A stretch of 37,170 nt of DNA from a virus. Numbering within the stretch: position 1 is the stretch's first letter; every line of letters starts with the position of its first letter. The position numbers and the translations under genes were made by a program. Location: positions 1 to 37,170 of IMG/VR virus record IMGVR_UViG_3300027973_000108; one strand, written 5' to 3'. Shown one piece after another: positions 6,377-34,992 of this stretch. The notes under the pieces are model-generated. The model saw only the letters and a program-made list of their open reading frames with translations. It ran no database searches and had not been told where the DNA came from.

Positions 6377-8326
6377 ATGGCCTATGAGGATCTGTTAAAA
6401 GACAATTCCGTTGCTGTAGAAAACGGAAATTATTTTATTGTAACGGTAACAGATCTTGAGTTAAACGAAAACTACCCAATACAATTTAGATGGAAATACC
6501 AAGATGGTGGTTACGGATTATGGTCTGTATCAAAACTACTTACAACTCCAGGAGAAACTTTGCCTGGAAGCCCAAACTTGTCGTTAACAGATGTTGTTGG
6601 CGGAGACGGATTTATTCAAATAACATGGAACGGAAATGATAAATCTGGAAGACCAGTTACCGATATTGATAGAGTTGATATATTTATAGATGGATCGCCA
6701 TTTGATGGAACTAAGCCAGCGGGTAGTTTTAAAACTGCTGGCACACAAACAATTGTAGCCCCAAGCGGACAATATGCTGTTGCACTATATGCAATTTCAA
6801 ATTATGGAAACAAGTCAGCAGTAAGTGATGCTCAAAGTGTTTTAGTTGTTAAATCTGGACAAAGTATTTTAAATCCAGAAAACCCTACAGTACCAGCAGT
6901 AAAGTCTGGTCTTGCCTCAGTAATTGTTGAATGGGACGGAAAGAAAAATGATGGGGCAGGTGGATCTGTTGATTTTACGTCAGGATCATTTGCTGGAGCA
7001 AAAATATTTATTGGTACATCTCCAACATTTACACCAACAGATAACAACTGGGTTCATACTTTAAACTTTGCAAATGGATCAAATAAGGCTTCAATTGGCG
7101 TAGGTACAGTAATTGATAAATCCTCTGGCGCTACTCTACAATACAATACCCCATACTATGTAAAAATGGATACAGTAAATGCAATCGGTACAGCAAACGG
7201 ACAACCAGTTTCTGCATCTAATAACCCAGTAAGCGTATCAAAGTTGCCAGCAAGTGAAATTAGTACAGGAATATTAACAGCCGACGCTTCAGTTACAGCA
7301 GGAGTTAGTGGTGGACAAAGAGTTGTTATATCAGGAAGCTCTTCTCCATTTATTATTTATGGAACTGACGGTACAACAAAGCTATTAGAGTATACAGCAA
7401 GCGGAACTGCTGGAACATTAGCAATTAAAGGCTCTGGAACATTTACTGGAACTCTAGATATAGGTTCTGGCAATGACATATTTAAAGCAGATCCTTCTGT
7501 AGGAATCTGGCTTGGTAATTCTAATTTTTTAACAGCTCCATTTGCAGTAAGTAAAAGTGGATATCTAACAGCAACATATGGTGAAATTGGCGGATGGCAA
7601 ATTGCTGGTTCATATTTACAAAACATTCAAGGCACACTTAAGATAAATAGCGGAACAGATCCATCTATTTATTTAGGACCTGCCTCTGGCGCACACATAA
7701 GACTATCACCAGACTCAATAACACATTATAATGGTGGGTCCCCAAGCAATAAATTTACATTAACAACATCAAATGGAAACATATCTTTAGCTGGAGACAT
7801 TACTGCAGGTTCTAATATTACTGGTGCAAAAATTACTGGTAGCGATATTGATGGATCTAAAATACAATCTAGCGGAACTTCACCAAGTGGGTATACTGGA
7901 ACTTTAACTATAGATAGCGGATACATAAAGCATACAACTGGAATATATTTAGATTCCCCATTTTTCGCTGTGACAACAGGTGGAATAAATATGACAGTTA
8001 ATAATGAAGGATATTTTTATCTCGCAGGAGACGGGTCTGTTATCTTGGGCCAGGGAAATGCAATAGGAGACCTACAGATTAGAACTGTTACATCAAACAC
8101 CGCAGAAGGCTGGGAGAGAGGATTTCATTTATCTGGAATAGATGACTTTCCTTTAAATTCTACCGCGAGAGGTAGTTATCCATTTTATAGAACAGTTTAT
8201 CATGATATAGCTGGAAAACTAATGAGCGGAAGAGCTTTGCTTTATGGCAGCTCTGGAACTTCGGCAGCAATTAATGCAGAAGTTCCTAGTGGTAGAGTTG
8301 GAGATTTGTACTTTAGTACAAGTTGA
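6377..8326 (+). CDS. Large tail fibre with fibronectin type III modules
   Basis: 649 residues. The first 65 residues end in an FRWKYQDGGYGLWS segment typical of Fn3-type strands; two Fn3-like modules follow (about 70-165 and 170-290; ITWNGNDKSGRPVTDIDRVDIF is visible here as ITWNGNDKSGRPVTD). From about residue 300 the sequence becomes a Gly/Ser/Thr repeat of strands in a beta-helix or intertwined-fibre style (TFTGTLDIGSGND; GDITAGSNITGAKITGSDID), ending in a more globular tip. This architecture fits a trimeric tail fibre that contacts the host. The gene ends 3 bases before the next fibre. Confidence 0.65.
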   Translation: MAYEDLLKDNSVAVENGNYFIVTVTDLELNENYPIQFRWKYQDGGYGLWSVSKLLTTPGETLPGSPNLSLTDVVGGDGFIQITWNGNDKSGRPVTDIDRVDIFIDGSPFDGTKPAGSFKTAGTQTIVAPSGQYAVALYAISNYGNKSAVSDAQSVLVVKSGQSILNPENPTVPAVKSGLASVIVEWDGKKNDGAGGSVDFTSGSFAGAKIFIGTSPTFTPTDNNWVHTLNFANGSNKASIGVGTVIDKSSGATLQYNTPYYVKMDTVNAIGTANGQPVSASNNPVSVSKLPASEISTGILTADASVTAGVSGGQRVVISGSSSPFIIYGTDGTTKLLEYTASGTAGTLAIKGSGTFTGTLDIGSGNDIFKADPSVGIWLGNSNFLTAPFAVSKSGYLTATYGEIGGWQIAGSYLQNIQGTLKINSGTDPSIYLGPASGAHIRLSPDSITHYNGGSPSNKFTLTTSNGNISLAGDITAGSNITGAKITGSDIDGSKIQSSGTSPSGYTGTLTIDSGYIKHTTGIYLDSPFFAVTTGGINMTVNNEGYFYLAGDGSVILGQGNAIGDLQIRTVTSNTAEGWERGFHLSGIDDFPLNSTARGSYPFYRTVYHDIAGKLMSGRALLYGSSGTSAAINAEVPSGRVGDLYFSTS

Positions 8327-34202: not shown

Positions 34203-34231
34203 TTGTAAAAAAGTCTAAGATTTGCTATAAT
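34203..34231 (+). promoter_or_regulatory. Promoter for hsp20
   Basis: TTGTAA (34203-34208), a 17-base spacer and TGC-TATAAT (hexamer 34226-34231), starting right after the LLM stop. The predicted start near 34238 gives a leader of about 52 bases. Confidence 0.7.
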
Positions 34232-34237
34232 AATATA

Positions 34238-34289
34238 TAGGTCGCCAAATGGGGCCTAAATTAACTTATTCGCTTGAAGGAGGAATAAT
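34238..34289 (+). promoter_or_regulatory. hsp20 leader with candidate RNA thermometer hairpin
   Basis: The leader holds a first hairpin (TAGGTC 34238-34243 with GGCCTA 34253-34258) and, at the ribosome-binding site, a stem of TTATTC (34266-34271) with GAATAA (34283-34288). That stem encloses the GAAGGAG Shine-Dalgarno, with two further weak pairs and a small loop inside. The AU-rich stem could hide the ribosome-binding site at low temperature and melt on warming, as known for many bacterial hsp20 leaders. Confidence 0.45.
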
Positions 34290-34697
34290 ATGGTAACAAA
34301 ACTTGCTATGGATTTTTTCAATGATCCATTTTTTATTGGATGGGATACAAATTTTGCAAAAATGCAATCTTCAAACTCTAACTATCCAATTTACGATCTA
34401 GTCAAATTCGATAATGGTGCCTACGGCATTAGCTTGGCAATTGCTGGATTCCAACGTGAAGACATCAGCATTTACATTGAAAATAATAATTTAGTAATTA
34501 AAGGTGAATTACACGGAGAACACTGGGATGGAGAATATATCCACGAAGGAATTGCCAAAAGAAATTTTGAAAGGTCATTTTCATTAGGAGAATATATGGA
34601 AGTTGATCTTGCCGAAATGAAAGATGGCATGCTTCACATACACATTAGTAAAAATGTCCCAGAAGAGAAAAAGCCTAAAACAATTAAAATAAAGTAA
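34290..34697 (+). CDS. hsp20: Small heat shock protein (HSP20/alpha-crystallin)
   Basis: 135 residues. The alpha-crystallin domain spans about residues 28-125: YPIYDLVKFDNGAYGISLAI, AGFQREDISI, LVIKGELHG, GEYIHEGIAKRNFERSF, SLGEYMEVDLAEMKDGMLHI and a C-terminal PKTIKIK tail. This is the IbpA-like chaperone that binds unfolding proteins; it is found in many aquatic phages, where it may help fold virion proteins or protect the stressed host. A strong GAAGGAGG site lies 6 bases before the ATG. Regulation by its own promoter and a possible leader thermometer. Confidence 0.9.
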   Translation: MVTKLAMDFFNDPFFIGWDTNFAKMQSSNSNYPIYDLVKFDNGAYGISLAIAGFQREDISIYIENNNLVIKGELHGEHWDGEYIHEGIAKRNFERSFSLGEYMEVDLAEMKDGMLHIHISKNVPEEKKPKTIKIK

Positions 34698-34699
34698 GA

Positions 34700-34705
34700 T
34701 ATAAT
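34700..34705 (+). promoter_or_regulatory. -10 element for the structured leader RNA
   Basis: TATAAT with no TG extension and no convincing -35, three bases after the hsp20 stop. The predicted start near 34711 coincides with the first stem of the structured leader. Alternatively, the leader is an intercistronic part of the hsp20 transcript. Confidence 0.5.
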
Positions 34706-34708
34706 AGA

Positions 34709-34802
34709 AGTCTGCACCCCGTCACTGGGGAGTCGCAGACTATTCGGGTCGCTACTCGAAGGATGGACCTGAGCATGTCCCCAAACTGCTCTTTAACAAA
34801 GG
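34709..34802 (+). ncRNA. Highly structured leader RNA, riboswitch-like, upstream of the FmdB-type gene
   Basis: About 94 bases, noncoding and more GC-rich than its surroundings. Stems: AGTCTGC (34709-34715)/GCAGACT (34735-34741) around CCCC (34717-34720)/GGGG (34727-34730); TTCGGG (34743-34748)/CTCGAA (34755-34760, one G-U); and GGAC (34765-34768)/GTCC (34777-34780), or instead GAGCA (34771-34775)/TGCTC (34787-34791). With the second option the loop TCCCC (34778-34782) can pair with GGGGA (34727-34731) as a pseudoknot. CTTT (34791-34794) may also pair with AAAG of the ribosome-binding site. The mutually exclusive pairings resemble a riboswitch. I could not match it to a known class. Confidence 0.6.
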
Positions 34803-34809
34803 ATTAAGA

Positions 34810-34992
34810 ATGCCAACATATGAATACTCATGTATAGAATGTGATTTTTCTAGAGAAGTAATCAGGCCTATTTCAGAGGCAGAAGCCACAGAGATTTGTG
34901 AAAGATGTGGATACAAGATGAACAAGGTTTACCATTCTTTTGGCATACAGTTTAAGGGTAATGGGTTTTATAAAACCGATCATTCGAAATGA
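34810..34992 (+). CDS. FmdB-type zinc ribbon protein
   Basis: 60 residues. MPTYEYSCIECD at the start and EICERCGYKM near 30-40 give the two C-x2-C knuckles of the FmdB/CxxC_CXXC zinc-ribbon family. The family is widespread in bacteria and phages, with members proposed as regulators but no settled function. The ribosome-binding site AAAGGA lies at the end of a structured leader RNA, suggesting that translation is controlled. It overlaps the second SGNH gene by ATGA. Confidence 0.75.
   Translation: MPTYEYSCIECDFSREVIRPISEAEATEICERCGYKMNKVYHSFGIQFKGNGFYKTDHSK

Follow-up and report, generated by a model that had tools for sequence, protein, structure and literature searches.

Upstream of its fmdB-like gene, the phage sequence analyzed here (37,170 nucleotides, hereafter the window) carries a leader that almost certainly, judging from the comparison of homologs, contains an H-type pseudoknot, and this pseudoknot belongs to a family that is uncatalogued in Rfam 15. 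We propose, with a probability of roughly 0.45, that the pseudoknot may function as an element protecting or insulating mRNA ends. More tentatively, the family could represent a portable mRNA end cap in tailed phages of many bacterial phyla, by which messages would survive host exonucleases.

Organization of the leader and its relatives

The leader occupies a noncoding gap of 112 nt between an hsp20 gene and the fmdB-like ORF. The initial annotation had noted a noncoding gap of about 110 bases here, rightly, and had placed CCCC, GGGGA (34727-34731), GAGCA, TGCTC, GGAC, and GTCC, with their pairs, at the correct coordinates. The features of the locus are as follows.

34290 to 34697, plus strand: upstream hsp20 gene (PF00011, E = 5.4e-19)
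34700 to 34705, plus strand: -10 promoter box TATAAT, 6 nt 5' of helix A
34710 to 34740, plus strand: module A, with outer helix GTCTGC (34710-34715)/GCAGAC (34735-34740), inner helix CCCC (34717-34720)/GGGG (34727-34730), loop GTCACT, and bulge AGTC
34743 to 34760, plus strand: middle hairpin (optional), TTCGGGT (34743-34749)/ACTCGAA (34754-34760), loop CGCT
34765 to 34780, plus strand: pseudoknot stem 1, GGAC (34765-34768)/GTCC (34777-34780)
34769 to 34770, plus strand: pseudoknot loop 1, CU, invariant in an alignment whose rows were chosen by a descriptor requiring CU
34771 to 34791, plus strand: pseudoknot stem 2, GAGCA (34771-34775)/TGCTC (34787-34791); loop 2 is 34776 and loop 3 is CCAAAC (34781-34786)
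34799 to 34803, plus strand: ribosome-binding site AAGGA, read from the sequence, about 8 nt 3' of the pseudoknot
34810 to 34992, plus strand: FmdB-type zinc-ribbon gene of 60 aa, served by the leader (PF09723, E = 2.8e-10; phrog_1076, E = 2.3e-6)

The leader, about 100 nt long, thus runs from TATAAT through 6 nt, hairpin A, a covarying hairpin, and the pseudoknot to the start codon, and the pseudoknot itself (34765-34791) reads GGAC-CT-GAGCA-T-GTCC-CCAAAC-TGCTC. The hsp20 gene has a conserved leader of its own (34225-34289), in which TATAAT is followed by AGGTCGCCnnnnGGGGCCTAA and TTATTCGCTTGAAGGAGG; it is kept in L001, L005, and L300 and, with small changes, in L358.

At least 84 distinct leaders, counted among the matches listed by pattern searches such as that for module A, were built alike: TATAAT is followed after 6 nt by module A, then by the middle module and the pseudoknot, and finally by a ribosome-binding site and the start codon. 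The distance from TATAAT to the CTGC of module A was 6 nt in 83 of the 84 leaders and 7 nt in the remaining one, while that from the pseudoknot end to the start codon was 17 to 22 nt in most of them. Because the TATAAT spacing is fixed at 6 nt, the RNA is expected to start at the base of helix A, which would place the transcription start of the window leader at about 34711-34713. The genes downstream turned out to be unrelated, encoding SNase-type nucleases (10 of the 21 scanned), 2OG-Fe(II) oxygenases, luciferase-like proteins, and FmdB-type zinc ribbons. On the upstream side, many of the related leaders likewise lie 3' of the end of an hsp20-like gene, with its Lys-Ile-Lys-stop terminus visible.

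The middle module was a covarying hairpin, module B, both, or none; the hairpin is missing, for example, from L323 and L364. Module B (TCGGGGGAGACAGCGA ... AACTGG) was matched in at least 120 stretches of IMG/VR. In L001, L005, L127, L162, and IMG/VR loci, module B (GTCGGGGGAGACAGCGAC...AACTGG) resembles a second knot, having a GTCG/CGAC stem with varying outer pairs and a crossing CAG/CTG. L083, L084, L123, L156, L419, and L473 carry another kind of structured RNA, about 100 nt long and driven by a promoter (TATAAT...ATTCCG...ATAGAC), which has the same knot at its end and, mostly, no obvious gene close downstream.

In the 49 leaders lacking module B, 95% of the cells were paired and 9 of the 26 pairs were changed on both sides, a level reached in none of 500 shuffles. 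The two-sided changes fell in outer helix A pairs, 5 of the 7 middle-hairpin pairs, and two stem 1 pairs. The search pattern prescribed the inner CCCC/GGGG helix of module A; in leaders found via module B this helix is compensated, to TCTC/GAGA in L475 and to TCCC/GGGA in L416.

Both stems of the pseudoknot covary

Homologous leaders gathered via relatives of the downstream protein had GGAC/GTCC replaced by AGTC/GACT, ACAC/GTGT, or AGAG/CTCT, with GAGCA/TGCTC unchanged. Since stem 1 varies with its pairing kept while GAGCA/TGCTC is constant, the two helices form an H-type pseudoknot and not a switch. The two competing arrangements described by the initial annotation are thereby replaced by a single one, in which GGAC/GTCC and GAGCA/TGCTC form together as crossing stems, each with covariation.

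We searched IMG/VR with a pattern comprising stem 2 and the loops, with stem 1 left free (CTGAGCAN{3,20}AAACTGCTC), which matched at least 120 stretches. Among the matches listed, 121 of the 144 distinct ones had at least three Watson-Crick stem 1 pairs in the exact register, as compared with about 17 expected from a flank-swap control. In the reverse test, stem 1 and the CT and AAAC loops were fixed and stem 2 was left free; all five stem 2 pairs were formed in 172 of 179 sites, against 0 of 18 in the reversed-sequence control. Even where neither strand of stem 2 had its usual sequence (18 sites), 12 sites were fully paired, and the compensated variants included GGACA/TGTCC, AGACA/TGTCT, GGCCA/TGGCC, and GGGTA/TACCC.

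A scan with a pseudoknot descriptor gave 277 matches, compared with 11 in reversed and 15 in shuffled sequences. An alignment of 85 copies, whose rows were chosen by the descriptor (the unbiased tests being the two above), showed two-sided changes at all 4 stem 1 pairs and 4 of 6 stem 2 pairs and a covariation score of 0.551, versus 0.191 in shuffles. The consensus comprises a freely covarying stem 1 of 3 to 7 bp with a C-G closing pair, loop 1 CU, stem 2 RRNYA/URNYY, a loop 2 of one nucleotide, and a loop 3 ending in AAAC. Covariation in aligned homologs, on which the initial annotation had made its own proposal depend, was thus found in both pseudoknot stems and in the hairpins. By energy alone the window fold is unremarkable (-31.2 kcal/mol, z = -1.0, with 33 of 200 shuffles equally or more stable), and it is the comparative evidence that is decisive.

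Distribution of the pseudoknot

The pseudoknot alone was found in more than 300 distinct copies in phage and bacterial sequences; these counts are lower bounds from the matches listed, which are a non-random sample, and they are inflated by related contigs. The hosts of the phages concerned range over actinobacteria, cyanobacteria, proteobacteria, and firmicutes, and crAss-like phages are included as well. A phage contig carried one to six copies (30 contigs), and none was found with a backward control pattern. The pattern was also present in at least 86 stretches of bacterial genomes, in most of which stem 1 is kept. Cultured phages with matches (some of them weak and short, and not all confirmed stem by stem) were Roseobacter SIO1, Lentibacter ICBM1/2, Celeribacter P12053L, Lactobacillus phig1e, Streptococcus Javan271, Lactococcus GE1, thermophilic D6E, Synechococcus S-EIVl and S-H35, crAss-like cr7_1, Escherichia EcoM-GJ1, Mycobacterium Labelle, Arthrobacter Molivia, and Nostoc NMeng1. 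In cultured phages of many families, the knot had the same placement at mRNA ends as is described below.

At least three knots lie within a few kilobases of one another in L086, L097, L140, L149, L174, and L182, behind successive genes, including those of the DUF932 type; the last knot was often just 5' of a tRNA-Asp gene. The knot also occurs within CRISPR spacers, in 4 of 97 spacers of an Ignavibacteria genome (L272) and 1 of 10 of an Oscillatoriaceae sequence (L246), in the same orientation and at varying offsets, and in a CRISPR spacer context with a single repeat in Melioribacter (L213). Acquisition of such spacers from RNA via RT-Cas1 is unsupported: the Ignavibacteria genome had no RVT_1 match, and, for the cyanobacterium, the sole contig found with both that repeat type and Cas1 carries a Cas1 without RT.

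Placement at mRNA ends

We then determined where the copies outside leaders stand relative to genes. Among those with an upstream ORF of at least 80 aa (n = 199), 40 start 4 to 7 nt past the stop codon and about 80 at no more than 20 nt from it, the distribution of distances being peaked with a long tail. A sense stop codon within 20 nt was found for 101 of 241 copies, as opposed to 18 for the mirror-image antisense and 7.4 ± 2.9 for random positions, so the stop-adjacent placement is sense-specific. The upstream genes were diverse and included those for DUF932 (19 of 83), head, ssDNA-binding, and RNR proteins.

A tRNA gene on the same strand lay within 200 nt downstream of 21 copies, 18 of which were 3 to 14 nt from it, and a tRNA lay upstream of one copy only; many of the tRNA-adjacent copies are mutually related (tRNA-Asp in 12 of 21), and the independent events are fewer than the count. 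In L204, a contig of a Polynucleobacter MAG, each of two knots runs directly into a type III hammerhead ribozyme (7271-7325 and 7541-7595, minus strand; one scores under the Rfam gathering cutoff), the cleavage site of which we take to be 6 nt 3' of the knot. The knots stand 5' of the RNase P and hammerhead cuts, and these cuts would therefore leave 3' ends a few nucleotides behind a knot.

Two families of tiny ORFs were observed at knot-bearing loci. The first (L212, L214, L226, L250, L254, L257, and L208) comprises ORFs of about 20 aa with the pattern MKRFxIPRxAHCxEGCxxxS and a strong ribosome-binding site, most of which terminate at a UGA within the CTGAGCA of the knot; a terminator-like hairpin follows the ORF in at least L212 and L226. 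The second (L228, L244, L271, and L279) reads MRWMFPHATHCSACGSIRWS.

Comparison with Rfam

At the gathering threshold, only two tRNAs were found by Rfam 15 in the whole window. Positions 34600-34900 gave, at E ≤ 10, one partial sub-threshold match to RAGATH-7-assoc (16 bits, where 88.5 are needed), in agreement with the initial annotation, which had been unable to place the leader in a known class. It had suggested manA and wcaG as the first motifs to compare; neither of these models, nor those of preQ1 and SAM, matched the window leader even at E ≤ 10. Across 31 other knot-bearing loci, the only Rfam matches were to tRNA, DUF2800, and Hammerhead_3. The knot lies 0 to 1 nt from the 5' edge of DUF2800 RNA (RF02960) in L215 (5408-5592) and L224 (2824-3006), and adjoins it, by eye, in L233 and L251. 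The Rfam model of this RNA begins 3' of the knot and does not include it, which suggests that the model may lack its 5' domain. No earlier description of the pseudoknot was found in the open-licence literature, and a prior account elsewhere is possible.

Proposed function and alternatives

From the structure and the placement described above, we infer that the knot may protect against nucleases, acting as a portable, compact RNA barrier that would shield and insulate mRNA ends. A knot that follows a stop codon, or that stands just 5' of an RNase P cut (the tRNA 5' end) or a hammerhead cut, would guard the new 3' end from 3'-to-5' exonucleases. In a leader, helix A at +1 and the knot beside the ribosome-binding site may together shield the 5' region, and the leader structures may prevent outside sequences from pairing with the start site. 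A barrier role would require no ligand. We favor a structural barrier over a sensor because the knot is rigid and only 30 nt long, its stem sequence is free, its loops are constant, its host range is wide, and it is placed at mRNA ends. The case for protection is weaker for the leader copies, whose knots do not stand at a 3' end and which may put the same fold to another use. Beyond a small number of model phages, little is understood of how phage mRNAs decay and how their 3' ends form; a short, recognizable element backed by covariation may offer a general way into the question of how messages are protected or marked by phages, and the knot might also find use as a small tag for stabilizing RNA.

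A protein-binding site is an equally good reading of the conserved loop bases, and contact with the ribosome or a conserved protein is the main rival to end protection. The knot would then aid termination or recycling, or block re-initiation, at stop codons, and would set translation initiation in leaders. A knot 4 to 7 nt behind a stop codon is where a stop-paused ribosome would meet it, a leader knot 17 to 22 nt 5' of the start codon is at about the edge of the 30S footprint, and the CU and AAAC bases are constant. The same bases, however, are needed for the loop-groove contacts of an H-type knot, the stop-to-knot distances are long-tailed, and the copies before tRNAs and hammerheads have no immediate downstream initiation. 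We consider this reading unlikely, albeit more probable than the other alternatives.

Alternatively, the leader might chiefly be an independent small RNA consisting of module A and the knot, with its 3' end made by cleavage or termination past the knot and the gene downstream by chance. This reading agrees with the promoter box of its own at a fixed spacing, with the promoter-plus-knot units without an obvious close gene in L083, L084, and L123, and with the knots preceding RNase P and hammerhead sites. The ribosome-binding site and the tight distance to the start codon in most of the 84 leaders nevertheless indicate an mRNA leader, which makes a small RNA improbable. The reading as an ordinary intrinsic terminator, a G+C-rich hairpin followed by a U tract, was rejected, as a T5 run lies within 14 nt in only 11 of the 89 near-stop copies and the window leader has no T run.

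We regard as quite improbable the view of the initial annotation that the leader is a ligand-binding riboswitch or a protein-sensing translational switch for the FmdB-type gene. A conserved structure does adjoin the ribosome-binding site, and preQ1 and SAM riboswitches include H-type knots. Yet no Rfam riboswitch was matched at E ≤ 10, the downstream genes (nuclease, zinc ribbon, 2OG-Fe(II) oxygenase, and luciferase-like) share no common pathway, the middle module is swappable or absent, and the same knot stands behind many unrelated stop codons without any switch layout. The alternative pairings are also poorly kept, that of GGGGA with TCCCC in only 7 of 84 leaders, and the proposed pairing of CTTT with the AAAG of the ribosome-binding site shows weak conservation at most (the best hairpin averages 4.17 bp, versus 3.88 ± 0.09 in shuffles). 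Of the sensing leader, the part borne out is a cis element, structured and conserved, where the mRNA begins; the sensing itself is unsupported, since the pairs coexist and the downstream genes differ. A recoding pseudoknot (frameshift or readthrough) of the luteovirus or retrovirus kind, although similar in its compact geometry and in the short spacer after the stop codon, is very improbable, given that the frame past the stop is not kept (CTGAG phases of 36/33/20), the extensions are short (medians of 7, 3, and 4 codons in the three frames), and there is no reading frame that could be shifted at the copies in leaders or beside tRNAs.

Relation to known systems

The HDV-like theta ribozymes of phages adjoin tRNA genes and have been tied to transcript processing (PMC10879173), and the present knot is likewise a phage RNA element beside tRNA genes. 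In contrast to those ribozymes, it has no known cleavage activity and is too small, though it adjoins cleavage sites. In the flavivirus xrRNA, a compact RNA knot halts an exonuclease (PMC7603331, PMC7385498), and a similar working principle may apply here. The xrRNA acts through a ring-like fold against 5'-to-3' enzymes, whereas the element described here is a simple H-type knot for which the direction of the block is presumed.

Riboswitch knots of the preQ1-I and SAM types are likewise small H-type structures beside a ribosome-binding site; the present knot differs in having no Rfam match and no shared downstream pathway and in being abundant behind stop codons. The -1 frameshifting knots of luteoviruses (e.g., BWYV) are compact H-type knots with a short loop 1 starting with C, a loop 2 of one nucleotide, and an A-rich loop 3. 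This compact loop layout is the same as that of the present knot, in which, however, stem 2 is 5 to 6 bp long and which lies outside coding frames, with no frame kept. The leader pseudoknot of phage T4 gene 32 is also an H-type knot in a phage mRNA leader, 5' of the ribosome-binding site. That knot serves a single gene and a single autoregulatory protein, whereas the knot described here stands before or after unrelated genes in phages of many families.
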